Virus record (IMG/VR): IMGVR_UViG_3300042514_001262
Location: 37,888-101,887 of that record
DNA: 64,000 nucleotides
Source of the DNA: a virus
Strand: one strand, 5' to 3'
The notes beneath the pieces were generated by a model that was not told the origin of the DNA, ran no database searches, and was given only the letters and a program-made list of their open reading frames with translations. Positions 3,142 through 60,205 of this stretch are shown piece by piece (the stretch's first letter is position 1; every line of letters begins with the position of its first letter). The position numbers were made by a program, and so were the translations under genes.

Positions 3142-5280
3142 TTAACAAGTTAAACACATTATATCATAGACAATTATTAATTCAACAATAATTTCTTGTC
3201 CGTTTAATGTATTGTCACCAGATTTAGTGTTAATAGTTATTTGATTATTTAATGAATCAATTGTTACTCCTCCAACACCAGGAACAGTCAATAATAAATT
3301 TTTAACTGTATCATAGTATAAGTTATCACTTGGTGCGCTAACCAATGTTGTACCTGTGAAGAAAGCATCGCTTGTTGTTAAACCTAATGGTTGTACACTC
3401 ACATTAACACTAAATACTGCAGATATCAAATCACAATTTGTTCCACCGCTAGTCAAATCGTTAAATCCTTCATTCAACATTTGAAGTAATCCATATTTTG
3501 TTTGTGATTGGATTACAAATTGTTCTCCACCCATAACATATGTTTGATAAGAAACATATTGAGTTTGGCAATCTATATTTGTAGTTCTGCTTAATGAACA
3601 CCCAATTGAATCAACAACTGTTAAACTATATGTTCCGGCAGTTAGTCCTGTTATTTGTATTTGTTGTGGATTACCCTGAACATTATTTGACCAATTGAAA
3701 TTAAATGGTGGTGTGCCTGTAGATATTAGAGCAGTTAAAGTTCCGTCCGAACCATTACCACATGAAGTGCTGTATAATGTAAAATCTAACGGGTCACTTT
3801 CACTAACATAAACTTGTGTTGTTTGTGTACATCCTGTTGCATCTGTAACGGTAACAGTGTGTTGACCTGAAGAAACATTTGTAAATGTTATTGCCGAAAG
3901 TGTCGTGTTAAAAACATTTTGAATCCCATCTAACGAATAATTGAATGGTGATTGCCCCCCATCTGTTTTTTCAACATAAACCGCACCATTACTTTGATTA
4001 CAAGTTGTTCCTGTAATTTCAGTAGTAATTTCAAAAGAATTTGTTGCAAATAAAGTAATTTCATCCGTGTAAGAACATCCCGACGAATCTTGAATTACAA
4101 CTGAATAAGTTCCTGTTGATAAATTACTAAATAATTGAGAAGTTTGACTATTAACAATATTAAGTGTGTTTCCATTGGGATATATTAAGGTGTATGTATA
4201 TGGTGAAACCCCTCCAGCAACTGAAACGGTTATTGAACCGTCGGTACTTGAACATGTTGAACCTTGACTTGATATTGTAACTGAAGCAATCCCAAGTGGT
4301 GTTAGTAATGTTGTACTAACAACTATACTACAAAAAGCGGAATCTGTTACCGAAATTGAATAATCCCCCGCAGATAATCCTGAAATTGACCATGTTTGAC
4401 CATATTGAATTTGAACATTACCTGTAGATGCAGAGTAATAATAAGGTGCAGTACCTCCAGTTATCTGAAGAGTTAAAACACCATCTGAAGAAAAACAAGT
4501 TGGTTGTGTCGCAGTAAACACACCAAACCCAAGAACATTAACATCAGTAACTACACCTGTTTGAGTTTGAGAACAACCCAAACTGTCTGTTACAACAACA
4601 GAATATGTCCCCGATGTTAATCCCGTAATACTACTTGTTGTGAACCCATTACTCCATAGATATGTGTAAGGTGCAACTCCTGTTTGTCCAGTTACAATAA
4701 TTTTTCCAATTGGCGTTCCCCCGCAACTTGAATTTGGAACAACATATAAACCATAATTAAAAGGTCCACTATCTTCCACAATAAAATCAGATGTCTTACC
4801 TGTACATCCCCCTAAATCTTGGGCTATCATATAATATGTTCCCGCAGTTAAATTGCCAAAAACTATGTTTGATGTATTAGTGTTTCCTGAATTTATGTAT
4901 GTATTGTCGGACAAATATAAATAAAAATTTGTTGACGAATAATTTGAAGAAGATGTGCTCGTTACCGAACCATTATCCAAACCACATGTGGTATTTTGGA
5001 CTGAAAGTACACTCGCACATACACCTGAAGAAACAGGGATGTTAATATAAAATTGTAAGTTTGTCGGTACGGTACTATCATTAACATTTACCGCATATGT
5101 ATCAGCACTTAATGAAGTTCTGATAGATGGATTAGTTGTTACAACATCAACACCCAAATTAGGTGATACCCATTGAACAGTATAGGGCGGTGTTCCTCCC
5201 GTTAGATATAATTCGACGGCACCAGAATTTGTATTCTGACAATCTCCCGTTATTATAATATTATAATTAAATGCCGACAT
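3142..5280 (-). CDS. Tail fiber/adhesin with SprB-type repeats
   Basis: This 712-residue protein contains at least seven repeats ending in the pattern (A/S)GTYxVxVxDxxGC, for example SGTYSVVVTDSLGC, several preceded by PYTYLWSNG. This is the hallmark of the SprB repeat family found in Flavobacteriia gliding-motility adhesins. Residues about 590-712 form a different, non-repeated C-terminal domain (YVMGGEQFVIQSQTKYG). It follows the gp7-like gene by two bases and precedes other fiber genes, so it is inferred to be an elongated fiber or spike on the baseplate. The repeats could be host-derived, giving adhesion to, or mimicry of, host surface adhesins. The family assignment is from motif recognition. 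Attachment geometry and receptor are unknown. Confidence 0.8.
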   Translation of the reverse strand: MSAFNYNIIITGDCQNTNSGAVELYLTGGTPPYTVQWVSPNLGVDVVTTNPSIRTSLSADTYAVNVNDSTVPTNLQFYINIPVSSGVCASVLSVQNTTCGLDNGSVTSTSSSNYSSTNFYLYLSDNTYINSGNTNTSNIVFGNLTAGTYYMIAQDLGGCTGKTSDFIVEDSGPFNYGLYVVPNSSCGGTPIGKIIVTGQTGVAPYTYLWSNGFTTSSITGLTSGTYSVVVTDSLGCSQTQTGVVTDVNVLGFGVFTATQPTCFSSDGVLTLQITGGTAPYYYSASTGNVQIQYGQTWSISGLSAGDYSISVTDSAFCSIVVSTTLLTPLGIASVTISSQGSTCSSTDGSITVSVAGGVSPYTYTLIYPNGNTLNIVNSQTSQLFSNLSTGTYSVVIQDSSGCSYTDEITLFATNSFEITTEITGTTCNQSNGAVYVEKTDGGQSPFNYSLDGIQNVFNTTLSAITFTNVSSGQHTVTVTDATGCTQTTQVYVSESDPLDFTLYSTSCGNGSDGTLTALISTGTPPFNFNWSNNVQGNPQQIQITGLTAGTYSLTVVDSIGCSLSRTTNIDCQTQYVSYQTYVMGGEQFVIQSQTKYGLLQMLNEGFNDLTSGGTNCDLISAVFSVNVSVQPLGLTTSDAFFTGTTLVSAPSDNLYYDTVKNLLLTVPGVGGVTIDSLNNQITINTKSGDNTLNGQEIIVELIIVYDIMCLTC

Positions 5281-5282
5281 TG

Positions 5283-8264
5283 TTATGAACAGTTAATACT
5301 AATGTTTATTCCCACATTTAAAGAAACCGTATCAACGATATTCTGAGTTAAACATGATAAATTTGTAATGGTTAATGTATTACCATTTAGATAATATGTG
5401 TAGCCATAATTGTATAATTGGGGTAAATAATTTATTAAAGCATTTCTCCATTGTGTGTTAGTTGGTACATCCATCATACCATAACCAGTGTAAAACGAAT
5501 CTTTAATAATTTGTTGTCCATTTATTTCTAAATCAACATACCAATCACTCAATACCGAGTTTTGAGAACATTGATTTAATGTTAAACCACTTTGAGCCAA
5601 CATATTATTAACCCTATTCACTAAAATAGAACTGAAGTTTGATACATTAACATCTCCATTAAACCAAGGGTAGATATTAAAATCCGCATATTCAGTGTTA
5701 CATGTATAATCAAAGATATTAGAAATGATATAACATGGGTCAACAGGAACTGGAACAAACTGACAACCTCTTTGTCTTCTATAAACAAATTTTTGTTTGT
5801 TCAAAATAGAGTTTTCTAATCTCACACCACCATTCCAAATTGTTGTTGCAGGAACCATTTGTTCAACCAACTTTGTCCAATAAGGACCAATACCATTTAC
5901 ATAATCAATTAACTTTTGGTAAGTATATTTGTTATTGGGTAATCCAACTGTTTGTTCTGATTCAATGTATTTCCAAAAAATAGATTGTAGTGTAGGATAA
6001 CCACCTGTTTTACCATCTGTAATATATTGTCTGTTTCTTGTATTAACCATGTTCTCCCAAAATGTTTGAGAAAATTCAAAGAATGTTTTTTTCTTTGGTT
6101 CAGGATTCACATATGTCCAATCAACTCCTCCAGGAACAGGATAACCAACCGTTAATCCTGATTCAGGAATAGGATAGTCATATTGTCTTGATTGTTCCCA
6201 AACATCATAAAGTAATCCTTGTGCAGGATTTAAGAATATGTCCACATTTTTAACATTCAATACTAATTTTTCATTATCAACGAAATAATAAGCATTGTAA
6301 TCACCTTGTGTTGAAACCCTAATTTTATCGTCAGTTGACAACCATGATTTATTATTATCAACAACTTTTTCCAACTTGAATCCTTCATTCATATATGGGA
6401 AATTCCTATATCTGTTAAGATATGTTTGACCATAAGTGAATGGTGTTAGTTGGGTTTGAATATTATAGTTTTGTCCTGTATACACATTACCCGTAAGTTG
6501 AACTTCATCAGGACTTCTGTGTTGAGGAGTTGTCTCATACCAACCTGCACCGATTTGGAAGAAGTATGTTTCCGTATTTACAGGTGATTTTGGATAACCC
6601 TCAACATCCATCGGATAATCTTCTAATAGAATATTAACATTTTGATAGGTTGCCGTTGAAGTAAATGCAGTATATAATTGACCTTTAACTTTATATGTTT
6701 CTCCAGGTAAATAACTCGGAACATTGTCCACATAAGTACCACCTGATATCTGAGCCCATTGAGTGTAAAATTGGTCAAGGTTAATTTTTTGGTCCGCCAA
6801 GTAAATGTGTTCATTATATTCTATCAACGAATCAGGAGCACCAATCAATCTTAATAAAAATTCAATTGACCTTCTTGTTCCCTTTGACTTGAAAAGATAA
6901 GACGCATTTAAGATTAAATTTCTATAGTACGCATAATTTAACTCTGTTGGTGTAAGAGCTCTTGCATATCCAGGATAAGTCGGTGTTGAGGTGTTACCAA
7001 ATACTGAACCTAAAAAATCTTCGTTTGTAATTGGTGAGAAATTTGAAGACCACCCTAAAGTTCTTGACAAGTTAACCAACAACTCTGAAGGTATATCATT
7101 TGAAGGATTGTAGTTTACTGAGTTCATGTAAGCCAACCCATCAATAAATTGTTTGATTTGGTCAAAACTTCGGCCATAAATCTGAAATATTTTCTCAACT
7201 TTTCTACCCAAAGTATCAAACTCTTTTAGAGAATCTGAAACTAAAAATCTTGAAATTAAATTTGTTTTAAATGAATCAAGGTTTACGGCAATTGATTGAA
7301 TTTGTTCCAAATAATTGTCAAACAAAAATGAACGAATATCTAAGTTCCATGTACCTTGTTTCGGCCATGTCACTTGTTGATAATCTGTATATGTTTGACC
7401 ATATTCATTTTGTTGAGGTACTTGGAAAACGGCAGTGTATTCAGGTCTAACCAATCTATTCACCAAGAATTTTTCAACCTCATCAAAAGATTCTTGGAAA
7501 ACTTTATCAACAATGTAATCATTAGGTCTGATTTGATAATCGTCATTGATTGTAGTTGCAGTTGTCCCAAATGGCGCACCCGAAACATAAAATTGAAGAT
7601 AACCTAAAGATAAAGTTTCAGATGGTACAAACGACAATACCTTATATATGTTATCGTTAATACTAATACAATAATCAAGGTAAGTATTATATAAATTTCT
7701 GTATGGAGATACGATAATTTCTCTGATTGACAAATTGGTTGCCGCACTTATAGAATAATCAATATCAAAAGGATTATTGATTCTATCTACATTCACTTTG
7801 AAATATGTATCATCATTCTGAGTGTCATAAACAATGTCGTATGCAGTGTTAGCGGTAACATAAAAATCATTATTGAACATTACATCCAATGATGCTGGAA
7901 AATAATTTATAATTTTTGTAATTGAAACACTAAATCTTTTAGATAACGACCCATACATCGAAAAGTTTAGAACTTGTGAAATGTCATAATTAGGATAAAC
8001 TCTGAATTGAGTTGCAAGAATCCTCCTACTTTGTTCCAAATCATCAATCCCCAACATATCAAGGGATATCGGTTCAGAGAAAGCCCCGACATTAAAAGTT
8101 CTGTTAACCTTTTCCGTTACACCAGTGGTAAATTCAAAATTACCTTGAGTAAGTCCTCCACCCTCAACAGTTTGTAATCCTACAATGTTGTCAGAGAAGG
8201 TACCCGCACCACTACCTGGTCTTGGGGGATAAAAATATTTCGTATTTTTTATATCTACCGCCAT
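5283..8264 (-). CDS. Baseplate wedge protein, gp7/P2 gpI-like
   Basis: This is a 993-residue structural protein. At about residues 455-480 it has YLFKSKGTRRSIEFLLRLIG, a segment characteristic of tail protein I and gp7-type wedge proteins, in which a conserved KGT-x-x-S-I-x-x-L-L helix follows a helical core. The N-terminal half is beta-rich and the C-terminal third probably carries peripheral domains. The gene is in the wedge and fiber operon downstream of gp25-like and gp6-like genes, as expected for a wedge component that bridges the inner baseplate to the fibers. Its ATG shares one base with the stop of the preceding gene, implying translational coupling. The wedge assignment is fairly secure as a class; equivalence to T4 gp7 specifically is inferred. 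Confidence 0.65.
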   Translation of the reverse strand: MAVDIKNTKYFYPPRPGSGAGTFSDNIVGLQTVEGGGLTQGNFEFTTGVTEKVNRTFNVGAFSEPISLDMLGIDDLEQSRRILATQFRVYPNYDISQVLNFSMYGSLSKRFSVSITKIINYFPASLDVMFNNDFYVTANTAYDIVYDTQNDDTYFKVNVDRINNPFDIDYSISAATNLSIREIIVSPYRNLYNTYLDYCISINDNIYKVLSFVPSETLSLGYLQFYVSGAPFGTTATTINDDYQIRPNDYIVDKVFQESFDEVEKFLVNRLVRPEYTAVFQVPQQNEYGQTYTDYQQVTWPKQGTWNLDIRSFLFDNYLEQIQSIAVNLDSFKTNLISRFLVSDSLKEFDTLGRKVEKIFQIYGRSFDQIKQFIDGLAYMNSVNYNPSNDIPSELLVNLSRTLGWSSNFSPITNEDFLGSVFGNTSTPTYPGYARALTPTELNYAYYRNLILNASYLFKSKGTRRSIEFLLRLIGAPDSLIEYNEHIYLADQKINLDQFYTQWAQISGGTYVDNVPSYLPGETYKVKGQLYTAFTSTATYQNVNILLEDYPMDVEGYPKSPVNTETYFFQIGAGWYETTPQHRSPDEVQLTGNVYTGQNYNIQTQLTPFTYGQTYLNRYRNFPYMNEGFKLEKVVDNNKSWLSTDDKIRVSTQGDYNAYYFVDNEKLVLNVKNVDIFLNPAQGLLYDVWEQSRQYDYPIPESGLTVGYPVPGGVDWTYVNPEPKKKTFFEFSQTFWENMVNTRNRQYITDGKTGGYPTLQSIFWKYIESEQTVGLPNNKYTYQKLIDYVNGIGPYWTKLVEQMVPATTIWNGGVRLENSILNKQKFVYRRQRGCQFVPVPVDPCYIISNIFDYTCNTEYADFNIYPWFNGDVNVSNFSSILVNRVNNMLAQSGLTLNQCSQNSVLSDWYVDLEINGQQIIKDSFYTGYGMMDVPTNTQWRNALINYLPQLYNYGYTYYLNGNTLTITNLSCLTQNIVDTVSLNVGINISINCS

Positions 8265-53221: not shown

Positions 53222-53951
53222 TAAATGTAAGGTTGAGAAACTATTAGAAAATTTCGTTAAAAAAAATAATAGTCCTGATGGGTGTGGAAATACTTGTAAT
53301 CAATGTAACAATGAGAGGGGAAGGAAATATCGTATTAAAAATAAAGAAAAAATAAAAAATTATTATATTGAAAATAAAGAAAAACACCAATCTTACAAAA
53401 AAGAACATTACACTAATAATAGAGAAAAAATAAAATCCAACAGTAAAGAATATTATATTAAAAATAAAGAAAAACAAATATCACAAAAAAAAGAATATTA
53501 TATTAAAAATAGAGAAAAAAAACTATCTAAACAGAAAGAATATAATATTAAAAATAAAGAAAATCTACAATCTTACCGTAATGAGTATGAAAGAAATAGA
53601 AAATTAAATGACCCTATTTATAAGTTATCAATTAATGTTAGAGATAGATTAAGAAAATATCTAAAGAGTGTAGGTATCACCAAGAATAAAAGAACATTTG
53701 ATATTGTTGGTTGTTCTCCACCTGAATTAAAAGAACATTTAGAAAAACAATTTGTGGATGGAATGTCTTGGGATAAAATGGGGAAAAAAATACATATTGA
53801 CCATATAATACCATTATCTTCCGCAAAAACAGAAGAAGATATATATAAATTAGCCCATTACACGAATCTTCAACCACTATGGGCTGAAGATAATTTGGCA
53901 AAATCAAACAAACTGGATTATTTATATACAACGGATAATCCAAAATTATGA
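53202..53951 (+). CDS. HNH endonuclease, cassette 1
   Basis: The 249-residue protein starts at a GTG (53202). The N-terminus has a zinc-ribbon-like pair set (ICSKCKVEK, then CGNTCNQCNNERG). Residues about 45-130 are Lys/Asn/Glu-rich helical repeats of about 17 residues (YYIKNKEK). The HNH domain lies at about residues 165-240: FDIVGCSPPELKEHLEKQF, then HIDHIIPLSS and HYTNLQPLWAEDNLAKSNK. Such free-standing HNH enzymes of phages are usually homing endonucleases that spread their own gene. It sits between the helicase gene and the SOD fusion gene, overlapping the latter by four bases. A paralogue lies at 60888-61628. Confidence 0.85.
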   Translation: METKICSKCKVEKLLENFVKKNNSPDGCGNTCNQCNNERGRKYRIKNKEKIKNYYIENKEKHQSYKKEHYTNNREKIKSNSKEYYIKNKEKQISQKKEYYIKNREKKLSKQKEYNIKNKENLQSYRNEYERNRKLNDPIYKLSINVRDRLRKYLKSVGITKNKRTFDIVGCSPPELKEHLEKQFVDGMSWDKMGKKIHIDHIIPLSSAKTEEDIYKLAHYTNLQPLWAEDNLAKSNKLDYLYTTDNPKL

Positions 53952-55480
53952 AAAAAACACAAAAGAAAATCCAACAACTAGAAACACAAATACTTGAAAA
54001 CCACATTAACCAAGAAAAGAAGTTGTTGATTACAGAAATGAAAAAAATAGGGATAGAAAAATTACCTTACTCCTATTCAGCCTTGAAGACGTTTATTGAC
54101 CCTGAGACAATGAATCTACATTACAATAAACACTATAAAACATATGTGGATAAATTGAACGATGCCCTCGCAAAAAAAGAATACGGGGATTTAGATTTAG
54201 AAAAAATAATAAAAACAATCAGTCGTTTTGATAAGACAATAAGAAATAACGCTGGCGGTGCGTTTAATCATGCATTGTTTTGGAATTTCTTAACCCCAAT
54301 CCCAAAAAAACTTGAAGGTGACCTTTACAAGAAGATTACCAAACAATGGGGGACATTCACCAACTTCAAAAAAGAATTTGAAAAACAAGCCAAAGACCGA
54401 TTCGGTTCAGGATGGGTATGGCTAATACTAACTTCAAAAAATACTTTGAAGATTATGTCCACACCAAACCAAGATAACCCATTAATGAATGTAATTGAAG
54501 GTGGTGGATTTCCATTACTCGGATTAGATTTATGGGAACATGCTTATTACTTGAAATATAAAAACAAAAGAGATGAATACATTACAAACTTTTGGAAAGT
54601 TGTTAATTGGGATTTTGTTAGTAAAATGTATGAAATGAAAATTGAAACGAAATTGGCGGAATCAACCAAGATGAAACAAGTATTAACTGAAGGTAAATCT
54701 GAAATGTGTTCTTCTTCTGAAAATGAATTTTATAGAATGTTATTCAATGTTAATTCAGATATTAAATGGACTTACATGAATGGGATTAACAAAATTATGA
54801 AAGAAATGTTTTCTGAAAATTATATTTCAACACCCGAAAATGACCAATTACCTGGTGTCTATAATCTTGAGGGTCCTGGTAGGTCGGTAATCAATAAGTT
54901 AAATACAAATTATACTGCGTTCTGTATTTTGTTGAAGGATTTGAATAAAGTGATTGCAACTATTCCAAACAAGGTTCCAATAAACTTCATGGATAAAACT
55001 CCATCAGAGCAGAAAAAAGAGGTTGAAAGATTTATAAGAGCAATAGACCATTACAAATATAGAATATTTGATAAAGATAGTTCAACTCTTCATAACTTGT
55101 TAAGAACCTTAACTGAAAAAGATAAATCCGGTTCAAAAAGAGAAGCGATTACAGCCGCAATTATTAGAAGACATTTTGGCAACGAGTTTGAAGTTGAAAT
55201 AATAGGTGAGTTAGGAAGTAAGAAAGATGCCATCCAAGGAATAGATTTGGAATTAAAAAATAATGAGAAAAAATATACCGCTCAAATCAAACCTTTCAGA
55301 AATATTATTGTATCTGAAGATGGTATTACCTTAGAAGGAACTGCGAGTGTTAAGATTTATAACACAGACCTCATGATTTTTCAAAAAGGAAAGAATGTTT
55401 TAATATTTAATAAAAAACCAAAAATCGTAAGAGGTAATTTTGTGTTTCCTGTGGATTCACTAATGTACAATATACAATAA
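53948..55480 (+). CDS. Superoxide dismutase fused to nuclease-like domain
   Basis: The product has 510 residues. After a helical N-terminus (1-35), residues about 36-232 are a complete Fe/Mn superoxide dismutase: LPYSYSALKTFIDPETM, metal ligands H58, H108 (FNHALFW), D194 and H198 (LDLWEHAYYL), and Y66. The GG at 103-104 and NQD at 174-176 follow the Mn-type pattern. Residues about 245-510 are a second domain. Near its end AIQGIDLELKN and YTAQIKPFRN give D433 and Q446-x-K448, reminiscent of PD-(D/E)xK nucleases. The SOD call is strong; the nuclease call is tentative. It starts at the HNH stop (ATGA overlap) and precedes a neck-like gene. Such a fusion is unknown to me. Confidence 0.8.
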   Translation: MKKTQKKIQQLETQILENHINQEKKLLITEMKKIGIEKLPYSYSALKTFIDPETMNLHYNKHYKTYVDKLNDALAKKEYGDLDLEKIIKTISRFDKTIRNNAGGAFNHALFWNFLTPIPKKLEGDLYKKITKQWGTFTNFKKEFEKQAKDRFGSGWVWLILTSKNTLKIMSTPNQDNPLMNVIEGGGFPLLGLDLWEHAYYLKYKNKRDEYITNFWKVVNWDFVSKMYEMKIETKLAESTKMKQVLTEGKSEMCSSSENEFYRMLFNVNSDIKWTYMNGINKIMKEMFSENYISTPENDQLPGVYNLEGPGRSVINKLNTNYTAFCILLKDLNKVIATIPNKVPINFMDKTPSEQKKEVERFIRAIDHYKYRIFDKDSSTLHNLLRTLTEKDKSGSKREAITAAIIRRHFGNEFEVEIIGELGSKKDAIQGIDLELKNNEKKYTAQIKPFRNIIVSEDGITLEGTASVKIYNTDLMIFQKGKNVLIFNKKPKIVRGNFVFPVDSLMYNIQ

Positions 55481-56630: not shown

Positions 56631-56966
56631 ATGGCAATTATAAGAACAATCCCGTCTACAAGATTAATCAACGGGGAAATTTTAAAAACATCAGAAGTAT
56701 CAATAGTATCCGAGTCGGAATATAGAACCAACGGAGAGGAATGTATTATTGTGAGAAATGTCAGTGAATCTACAATTATTTTGGATTCCAAAACAACTGA
56801 CCATATTGTGGTAAAGGCAATGACAAAAGTAACAATCAAACCTAATATAGGTAAGATTGATGAGGACTATGATGAAATAGTTGCCGACAAGTATGCTTGT
56901 ATTGAATTCAGATTTTGTGGTGGAAACTGGTATATTTTGTCGTCAGACGGATTGAAAAGTTCTTAA
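56631..56966 (+). CDS. Small beta-rich structural-type protein
   Basis: The product has 111 residues (MAIIRTIPSTRLINGEILKT), beta-rich, with CIEFRFCGGNWYILSSDGLK at the C-terminus, a pattern often seen in phage fiber or decoration proteins. It is the last gene of the plus-strand block, and its final codons overlap the degenerate outer repeat of the CRISPR-like array. Function unknown. Confidence 0.6.
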   Translation: MAIIRTIPSTRLINGEILKTSEVSIVSESEYRTNGEECIIVRNVSESTIILDSKTTDHIVVKAMTKVTIKPNIGKIDEDYDEIVADKYACIEFRFCGGNWYILSSDGLKSS

Positions 56967-57193
56967 TTTATTTCAAATTGAATCTATTTTCAACGAATTT
57001 TTATACACTACCTGTGCATTGGTAGGTGTCTATGACTTTCAAATTGTATCTATCTTCAACAGACCCTTGGACTATGCGCAGATTGTTGCGGGTGTCTATG
57101 ACTTTCAAATTGTATCTGTCTTCAACTTGGTATAGGTATATCCATCACAAAATGGTAGGTGTCTATGACTTTCAAATTGTATCTGTCTTCAAC
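56959..57193. CRISPR. CRISPR-like mini-array: 4 repeats, 3 spacers
   Basis: Four 36-bp units lie at 56959-56994 (degenerate, 26/36 matches), 57025-57060, 57091-57126 and 57158-57193. The last three differ at one position only (57052). The core reads CTTTCAAATTGTATCT and the units end TTCAAC on the plus strand (GTTGAA on the minus). Spacers of 30, 30 and 31 bp (56995-57024, 57061-57090, 57127-57157) are unrelated to each other. Geometry and a degenerate end repeat fit CRISPR, and 36/30 is usual for Bacteroidota type II-C and VI-B arrays. No cas gene is present. The outermost units overlap the 3' ends of both flanking genes, so an origin by duplication of coding sequence is an alternative. Confidence 0.6.
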
Positions 57194-57481: not shown

Positions 57482-60205
57482 TTAAATTATTGTTGCTAGA
57501 TTATCTTGCCAACCATCTTCTGCTAAGTCATACATATAGTCAGAACTTAAACCTCGTTTTTCCCAATAAGACATTTCAGCGTCTGTAATTGCTAACACAT
57601 CTTCCAACTTATCTTGGTCAGAATCTTCAAATGGTAACCCATTTATTAATTCACACTGAGCGGTTGTAAAGATACCTCTTTGTTCAGGGTCATTTACAAT
57701 TAAACCATTTCTAACCTCATCTTTAAAACAAACCAATAATGGCTCAATTCTTTTATTAAATGTTGTTATTGCTCTCGGCACATTATAATCACCTGTTAGA
57801 TTAGGGTCGTTATCTAAAATATCTTTATCTAACATATAACAATTAATTTGAACACCATCACCTTTCTTTTGAACATCACCGTGAGATGATTTAATACCAT
57901 TGTTAACATACAAAATAACATCACCCAAACTCACATTTAAGTTTGACTGTAAAGCTAACTCCATGTGAGCCATACGACTCATACTATTACCTGATTTAGT
58001 TTTTTCTGTTAAACGTTTCTTATAGTCCTCCATTGACAACTTAACCTTAGCTCTTTGAGCAATCTTACTTAACGGTATTTTCTTATCAAAGATTGTTTGT
58101 AAATACTCATAGTAGTATTCCACAAATGATTTACCGTCACCCTGAAGTAACATCTTAATTCCTTTATCCAAAAAAGCCTCAATATATAGTGGAAGTTTTT
58201 TTGATTTAATACTATTACCCGTTAATTTGATTTTACCTTTAGAATCCATAACGGCATAGTTCTTACGAGCCAAGTTAATACATGAAGGCCAAACCCCATC
58301 AGTATCAAGAGCCATTTCACCTCTCATGAAGATATCATTATACTCCGCAACATCCGCTTCAGGACCATAGTATTCTTTACCTTCTTTAACCTTCCAATTT
58401 AACCCACGACCAACATATACCCTATCCTTCGCATCTGGCGGAGTTGAAAAGTTCACTCCGTCCGTATCCATTACCAAAGGAACATAACCTTTAGTCATGA
58501 AGAACTTAATCATTTGACGAAGGTATTGTCTACCCGTACAAGTAATCTGTTCTCCCATATACATGTCACCCCAAGCATAAACCTGTGGTGCCGACAAAGC
58601 TCCGAACATGGAGTTAATAAAAATTTTAATTGGTAATTGTTTGTTACCGTATGATTCAGATTTTTTACGGTCTGTCTCATAAAACTCTTCCGCAAGTTGT
58701 TTGTATTTGATACGAGTGTCACGGAAATACTTTAACATTCCTTTCATTGCACCTGTTACATCACAGTCGGGGAATACATCGTGTACCAACTGAATAGAGG
58801 GATATAGAGACGAGAAGTCAAGTTTGAGAACATCTTTAGAGTAACCAACCTTAAGTAGTCGTGAAAGACCCCCTACGAAGTCTGTCTTACCTTGTTTCTC
58901 AGGAATGGCAAGTCCATGTTTATAAGACCAAGCCAACATCAACATCTTCCATAATGTTGCGGTTCCCATGGTTGAAACCCTTTCATATGTTGTTGGAATC
59001 ATCGCAGCCAACAAGAATGAACCTTGGTTGAACTCTTGGTCAACCTTTAGGGTTTCATCTAAGTCATCGTCAAGATACATCTCAACTAACTTGTCACCTG
59101 TAATTTTGTTATAAACATCAGAGCGTTTTGAACACGCATCATCAATCTTTGAATCAACCCCAACTTTCTTGTACTTACCGTTTTGAGTGTTTAACCAAAA
59201 ATCTTCTTTCTTCACATAAAATGGTCCGATATCCAAATGGTCAATATAAACACGGTCAGGAGCTTCAGCGTTAATATACTTGGTAATATATTTCAAACCC
59301 GCAGCTTTAATACTTGAGTTAATCGCCTGAGCCCTACGAACCGCATGGATAATATCAATTACATTGTAACCCCAAATTGAAGTTTGGGTAAAAGTTTCTA
59401 CCTCATTCGCAAGCTTTAACATACTATCTTTTCTTGTGAATGAATGGTCGGGGTGTAATGACTTACATATTTTCTTTGGGTCAATTCCCAATATATTACA
59501 TCTTTCAAAAATCCAATGCCAGTCAAAGTTTGCCGAATTATATCCACCAATTATACTTGGTTTTAATTCGTTAATCACTCTAAAAAATTCAATGATTGCA
59601 TTTTTTTCTTCTCTCTCATCCATACACTCAATCACTCGGTGATAACCCTTGTTTGTTTTAATTCCAATCATGAAGATACGACCATCCTTTGGTTCAAGAG
59701 CGGTCGTCTCCAAGTCATATACAAGTCGGGTCACTTCGTCATAGTTCTCGAAACCCTTAAATAATCGTTTTTCTTTTGAGATGAGATATTGTTCTACAGG
59801 AGGTAGAATCATTACTTTGTCTTTAGTTTTTTCTCCCCATGGGTCACATCCACCTTCTCTGAAGAATTGGATAAGTTCTCTATAACCTTTAAGTGATTTA
59901 ACCATGAACGTCATACCGTTCTGTAATCTTTCATTACCGTGGGTCTCCAATTTGTCAATCATAATACCATGTTTGGTCATGGCTTCTTTCTGAGCTGCTT
60001 TTGAATTACCGTAAAAGTTAATACCACGCAGGTCACCTACCCAAGCGAATGGGGTGAATGTATCTTTACGGATTTCTTTTCCCTTACCGGGTATTTCACG
60101 TACCTTGTAAATGGAATTTTCGCGATAATCGTATTCTATTGCGACTATAAATTCTTCGGGGTCATTCCCGTGTAAGAACGATTCAATTTCTTCGTTTGAT
60201 ATCAT
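57482..60205 (-). CDS. gp43: DNA polymerase, family B (gp43-like)
   Basis: This 907-residue replicative polymerase is close in length to T4 gp43 (898). The 3'-5' exonuclease motif I LVYDLETTALEP lies near residue 165 and Exo II-like GGYNSANFDWHW near 215. Polymerase motif A KLDFSSLYPSI lies near 466, motif B KIFINSMFGALSAP near 528 and motif C VMDTDGVNFSTP near 578. Motif C has Gly where YxDTDS enzymes have Ser. The gene is separated from the other replication genes by over 30 kb and has its own Bacteroidota-type promoter at 60262-60292. Confidence 0.93.
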   Translation of the reverse strand: MISNEEIESFLHGNDPEEFIVAIEYDYRENSIYKVREIPGKGKEIRKDTFTPFAWVGDLRGINFYGNSKAAQKEAMTKHGIMIDKLETHGNERLQNGMTFMVKSLKGYRELIQFFREGGCDPWGEKTKDKVMILPPVEQYLISKEKRLFKGFENYDEVTRLVYDLETTALEPKDGRIFMIGIKTNKGYHRVIECMDEREEKNAIIEFFRVINELKPSIIGGYNSANFDWHWIFERCNILGIDPKKICKSLHPDHSFTRKDSMLKLANEVETFTQTSIWGYNVIDIIHAVRRAQAINSSIKAAGLKYITKYINAEAPDRVYIDHLDIGPFYVKKEDFWLNTQNGKYKKVGVDSKIDDACSKRSDVYNKITGDKLVEMYLDDDLDETLKVDQEFNQGSFLLAAMIPTTYERVSTMGTATLWKMLMLAWSYKHGLAIPEKQGKTDFVGGLSRLLKVGYSKDVLKLDFSSLYPSIQLVHDVFPDCDVTGAMKGMLKYFRDTRIKYKQLAEEFYETDRKKSESYGNKQLPIKIFINSMFGALSAPQVYAWGDMYMGEQITCTGRQYLRQMIKFFMTKGYVPLVMDTDGVNFSTPPDAKDRVYVGRGLNWKVKEGKEYYGPEADVAEYNDIFMRGEMALDTDGVWPSCINLARKNYAVMDSKGKIKLTGNSIKSKKLPLYIEAFLDKGIKMLLQGDGKSFVEYYYEYLQTIFDKKIPLSKIAQRAKVKLSMEDYKKRLTEKTKSGNSMSRMAHMELALQSNLNVSLGDVILYVNNGIKSSHGDVQKKGDGVQINCYMLDKDILDNDPNLTGDYNVPRAITTFNKRIEPLLVCFKDEVRNGLIVNDPEQRGIFTTAQCELINGLPFEDSDQDKLEDVLAITDAEMSYWEKRGLSSDYMYDLAEDGWQDNLATII

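Follow-up and report, generated by a model that had tools for sequence, protein, structure and literature searches.

The window, the 64,000-nt stretch of an IMG/VR virus record analysed here, holds an array of 36-bp repeats that begins within a protein-coding gene. We read it, with confidence a little better than even, as a CRISPR array of the VI-B (Cas13b) kind that is carried by a phage and rooted where the coding sequence of that gene ends. It is very probably a CRISPR-type array grown by a Cas1-Cas2-like integrase, which is well supported by its anatomy, and a yield of working guides is a plausible, still somewhat doubtful and putative further step. In the literature searched, phage CRISPR-like arrays lying inside protein genes and apparently related to VI-B would form a previously unreported class.

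Anatomy of the array and its carrier gene

The array lies on the minus strand, which is also the strand of the carrier gene, and is made of three full 36-bp repeats and one degenerate terminal repeat, separated in minus-strand order by spacers of 31, 30 and 30 bp (Table 1). The full repeats show at most one mismatch among them and the spacers are mutually unrelated, so that near-identical repeats and unique spacers of uniform length, the general marks of a CRISPR array, are both present. Further repeat copies are found neither in the window nor in the 101,887-bp parent IMG/VR record. The degenerate repeat overlaps the stop of a convergent gene (56631-56966). The first repeat coincides with the 12 codons that close the conserved part of the carrier gene. 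The first-pass annotation had described a CRISPR-like mini-array of four 36-bp repeats overlapping the gene end, and both the array and the overlap stand, with near relatives carrying the same locus and other spacers; the residues encoded by repeat 1 are 84-95 (VEDRYNLKVIDT) rather than 83-94. The 31-bp spacer 1 shifts the frame, and repeat 2 then supplies the stop codon of the carrier gene (..CCA AGT TGA). The inner units are therefore untranslated, and the 66-bp in-frame period once proposed for them is broken.

Table 1. Carrier gene and array elements, positions as in the window
Feature	Position	Strand	Remarks
Carrier gene, 106 aa	57122..57442	-	ORF and relatives; C-terminal motif W83-V84-E85
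Repeat 1 (gene-proximal), 36 bp	57158..57193	-	codes carrier residues 84-95: GTTGAAGACAGATACAATTTGAAAGTCATAGACACC
Spacer 1, 31 bp	57127..57157	-	codes the C-terminal tail of the carrier gene
Repeat 2	57091..57126	-	same sequence as repeat 1; supplies the TGA stop of the carrier gene
Spacer 2, 30 bp	57061..57090	-	
Repeat 3	57025..57060	-	one mismatch
Spacer 3, 30 bp, trailer end	56995..57024	-	common to the window and L004
Degenerate terminal repeat	56959..56994	-	26/36 match, 10 positions differ

Members of the carrier family often start with MKYIITE and end with W-[VFL]-E...L.V, and in several phage lineages they bear arrays at the same place, the 3' end. The carrier phages are uncultured, mostly large and aquatic (IMG/VR). 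The AlphaFold model of the carrier shows a helix-sheet-helix arrangement (pLDDT 89.8) with no significant fold match in the PDB, and its matches in BFVD are uncharacterised phage proteins only. Pfam and PHROGs give no family match for the window gene, PADLOC gives scattered weak matches only, and no match to a known RNA family was found. The family was not found among the cultured phages of INPHARED, where no array was found either, and no carrier relative was confirmed among GTDB genomes.

Spacer turnover among related phages

Three relatives from IMG/VR show how the locus varies. L003 is identical to the window locus. In L004, with a gene product 92% identical over the aligned part, the trailer spacer and the degenerate repeat are kept and the gene side holds one different spacer, unrelated to the window spacer 1 whose place it takes. 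In L005 (74% identical) the repeat differs slightly from that of the window but is repeated exactly, and it flanks two other spacers. From this comparison the repeats appear to go with the gene and the spacers do not. The 3' end in relatives, which the annotation had expected to discriminate between a CRISPR array and diverged tandem duplicates of a coding segment, is indeed a conserved coding end; what follows it are arrays of unrelated spacers and not diverged duplicates.

A census of IMG/VR phages, extended by a second search seeded with members of the long-array lineage, gave about 60 arrays, some of them from overlapping contigs, and 150 distinct spacers, counted without one miscalled array. 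The 36/30 geometry is quite uniform, with exactly 30 nt in 133/154 spacers, and arrays hold up to eight spacers. Order and polarity were evaluated on 23 distinct arrays, each of three or more spacers and each having a spacer in common with another array. The order of shared spacers is conserved in 235/235 pairs. The last spacer is shared in 22 of these 23 arrays and the first in 14; related phages have trailer-end spacers in common and differ mostly at gene-proximal positions. One array reads 63-64-21-22-23-65 in L073, 63-64-21-76-77-23-65 in L092 and 20-21-22-23 in L010. CRISPR arrays change by gain at one end and internal loss, with the old end conserved. Polarised spacer turnover and a degenerate terminal repeat, both expected of CRISPR, are thus found here, and the sequence adjoining the variable end is the coding end of the gene. 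Spacers have a GC content of 40% and phage loci 32%, suggesting that the spacers come from elsewhere.

Some smaller features of the arrays were also noted. Spacers 18 and 61 recur in arrays whose genes are otherwise different (L074, L070, L161, L179, L180, L010, L092, L166 and L178), suggesting that arrays recombine with one another. Among the short arrays (window, L004, L005, L051, L052, L054, L056, L066, L082 and L098), the gene-proximal spacer has a length of 31 nt in 10/19, compared with 1/13 at later positions (Fisher P 0.011); after a spacer of this length, the following repeat supplies an in-frame TGA. Another gene of L005 (1529-1770) contains tandem 60-bp units (ATTAAATCTCTTGGAAACCTTGAATCGGTTGGAGGT plus 24 nt), which are closer to a protein repeat than to an array.

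Repeat sequence, proposed coding origin and translation

The repeats were compared with those of 35 Bacteroidota VI-B loci, retrieved by pattern from published Flavobacterium repeats (PMC5395568); Cas13b was confirmed in 4/5 tested neighbouring proteins of these loci. The 13 phage repeat variants, all 36 bp, reach 20-26/36 ungapped identity with the best VI-B repeat, where the mean of shuffles is ~12/36 (P about 0.003 or less for the 13 variants). Local alignment on the gene strand gives z 2.7-6.9 against VI-B and z -0.7 to 1.7 against eight Bacteroidota II-C repeats. Many variants, though not all, exceed synonymous recodings of the same peptide in VI-B score, so for many of them the repeat DNA itself, beyond the peptide, seems to lean to VI-B. 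For class C repeats (L051/L098) the better fit to VI-B is on the non-gene strand; both strands score because VI-B repeats are quasi-palindromic. For the window repeat alone, a smaller comparison gives z 3.7 for VI-B and z 3.5 for II-C, the small II-C set behind the latter value including one long F. psychrophilum repeat that resembles the window core, and here the distinction between the two types is weaker. No phage repeat is identical to any host repeat found. On these comparisons VI-B (Cas13b) is probably the related CRISPR type. The annotation had likened the array to those of Bacteroidota II-C; a host CRISPR with a similar repeat does exist, in Bacteroidota VI-B, similar but not identical, and II-C as parent type was rejected, its repeat similarity being mostly near chance and, on the gene strand, far below that of VI-B, the F. 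psychrophilum repeat aside. Folding agrees less well. The window repeat folds with -2.7 kcal/mol, no better than shuffles and unlike host VI-B repeats, and lacks the VI-B hairpin; A-type repeats show a weaker two-stem fold.

Array-less relatives keep the W-[VF]-E peptide motif, but their corresponding 36-mers score 0.2 +/- 5.9 against VI-B, array repeats scoring mostly 8-15; a few array-less members of close subfamilies score up to 12. Because the motif is kept with little VI-B likeness, the comparison favours an order in which coding would come first and the repeat second. The birth of the repeat from coding sequence, already proposed in the annotation, gains support from these relatives and is held with moderate confidence. 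The alternative order, a captured repeat later turned coding, retains some probability. Within the family, gene ends with no array, units with a single spacer and long arrays form a natural series in which the ancestral coding role is still visible and which bears on the birth of CRISPR arrays.

Arrays of the long-array lineage are open throughout in the frame of the gene. All 117 distinct 30-nt spacers are stop-free in this frame; the two remaining forward frames give 50 and 81. Among host VI-B spacers, 52-65% are stop-free over six frames and 52-59% on the array strand, and spacers of 29 and 31 nt are present there but absent from the long phage arrays. Since all 117 are stop-free and no 29- or 31-nt spacers occur, translation through the array appears to be selected in this lineage; these would be CRISPR arrays under selection to stay translatable. 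In short arrays, that of the window included, spacers are 29-32 nt long and stops occur. Genes overlap in L010, and translational coupling was considered as a reason for in-frame arrays.

Machinery, targets and competing explanations

Cas1 was found in none of 19 phage records. Cas13b, which a VI-B locus would have in the same genome, was found in none of 29; the records reach 326 kb, and many are fragments. The annotation's remark on the missing cas gene is supported, in that none was found in the phage. With neither protein found in the records tested, addition and use of spacers would have to rely on host proteins. Searches for protospacers gave none in INPHARED (one match at E = 3), none in five exact core scans of IMG/VR that included all three window spacers, and chance-level matches only in 396 Bacteroidota genomes. 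The 22-nt core of spacer 1 and the 24-nt core of spacer 2 occur in IMG/VR only in the array, and the core of spacer 3 only in arrays. Matches of the spacers to mobile elements, by which the annotation would have linked them to rival phages, were thus not found in INPHARED, related phages or the exact scans of IMG/VR. A self origin was rejected: comparison of about 28 spacers with 27 phage records gave no self-derived one. Host VI-B spacers give only short, chance-level matches to phage loci, and the source of the spacers by coding strand shows no strand bias. Separately, in L147 a 1161-aa protein (3588-7070, minus strand) adjoins a VI-B-like array; it is missed by the Cas13b model as a whole, is weakly recognised over ~240 positions and is perhaps a divergent effector.

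In the preferred reading, a host Bacteroidota Cas1-Cas2 (VI-B borrowing that of II-C) would treat the end of the gene as if it were a leader-repeat junction, inserting a 30-nt piece and duplicating the 36-bp repeat. VI-B loci acquire spacers in trans via the II-C Cas1 despite different leaders and repeats, and transcription of their arrays proceeds from the leader side (PMC8092290). The phage arrays have the same polarity toward the gene as VI-B arrays toward the leader, and, as in VI-B loci, the gene transcript would reach the variable end of the array first. Host Cas13b could then cut this transcript into guides whose targets would be the transcripts of rival phages or the host's own. One lineage would keep its array in frame and translate it as 22-residue units. 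More tentatively, the 3' end of the gene may have drifted to VI-B likeness and become a Cas1-Cas2 acceptor, its transcript serving both as mRNA (array-translated in one lineage) and as putative precursor of Cas13b guides. Selection for translation of long arrays is unexpected of a plain guide array and counts against the preferred reading, as do the missing protospacers, the missing hairpin of the window repeat, the strand fit of class C and the failure to find an array in a cultured phage.

The arrays could also be accidents, VI-B-like gene ends struck by host Cas1-Cas2 that carry harmless tails with no guide role. The tolerance of VI-B adaptation for very different leaders and repeats (PMC8092290), the window repeat without hairpin and an insertion site at the extreme 3' end of the gene suit such an origin. 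It is nevertheless unlikely: phage DNA should dominate infected cells, yet no self spacer was found against the 27 phage records, in many variants the codons chosen are more VI-B-like than the peptide demands, and multi-spacer arrays are kept with conserved order across related phages. Somewhat less likely again is a decoy, in which the repeats would absorb host adaptation events or keep Cas13b occupied in the manner of an RNA anti-CRISPR. Known RNA anti-CRISPRs are repeat mimics (PMC10651486), and a phage may hold several array-bearing copies of the gene; these mimics are, however, solitary, whereas the arrays here have multiple repeats, up to eight spacers and polarised turnover, and the window repeat has no Cas13b-like fold. 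Diversification of a protein by some non-CRISPR recombination, joining constant 12-residue and variable 10-residue modules, would explain why long-array spacers are all stop-free and nearly all exactly 30 nt when host VI-B spacers, those of 29 and 31 nt included, are not. We consider it improbable, given the stops and 29-32-nt spacers of short arrays, VI-B likeness at the DNA level, mutually unrelated spacers with GC above that of the phage, and degenerate trailer repeats. Chance or plain tandem duplication is ruled out by exact repeats round unrelated equal-length spacers and by spacer turnover.

Among known systems, the VI-B arrays of Bacteroidota (for example Flavobacterium columnare, PMC8092290, PMC5395568) are among the closest, with 36-bp repeats, ~30-bp spacers, GTTG...CAAC-type ends, similar repeat sequence and the variable end upstream in transcription. 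The arrays described here differ in that they are on phages with no Cas13b found, their repeat is diverged and coding, the hairpin is weak or absent and no non-coding leader is recognised. The mini-CRISPR arrays of SPV1/SPV2 (PMC6858448) are likewise carried by viruses, lack cas and show turnover of spacers among related viruses. They lie between genes, next to a host-like leader that bears a promoter, and their 1-2 spacers target related viruses, whereas here up to eight spacers lie within coding sequence. Mini-CRISPRs are cas-less with host-type repeats; here no Cas1 or Cas13b is found and the repeats are VI-B-like, identical to no host repeat found. Cas-less arrays of huge phages share large genomes, compact arrays and bacteria-like repeats, and VI-B-like or coding arrays are not described in the available part of that report (PMC7162821). 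RNA anti-CRISPRs and solitary repeat units resemble our arrays as repeat mimicry in phages, and they are single repeats of all types except VI (PMC10651486); our arrays would belong to the RNA-targeting type VI while being carried by viruses, and for this type that survey of repeat mimics found none. Spurious translated CRISPR ORFs (PMC7673337) also read repeat-spacer units as protein, but in our case a conserved folded domain stands at the start of the ORF and long-array spacers are all stop-free. The arrays lead to testable guesses about which uncultured phages pair with which hosts, and about a role in counter-defence or rivalry directed at Cas13b bacteria.

Identification of the host via cultured relatives failed, the carrier family not being in INPHARED and the polymerase at most ~27% identical. 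This family B DNA polymerase (window 57482-60205) has its nearest cultured relatives by tblastn in Salinibacter, Nostoc/Anabaena and Stenotrophomonas phages, about 23-27% identical among the best matches listed. A 510-aa protein (53948-55480) has an N-terminal Fe/Mn superoxide dismutase domain (Pfam) and a C-terminal part of ~280 residues without Pfam match. A Shine-Dalgarno-like 4-mer is found upstream of 0/33 window ORFs with a length of 150 aa or more (5% per site expected at random), which is weakly consistent with a Bacteroidota host.
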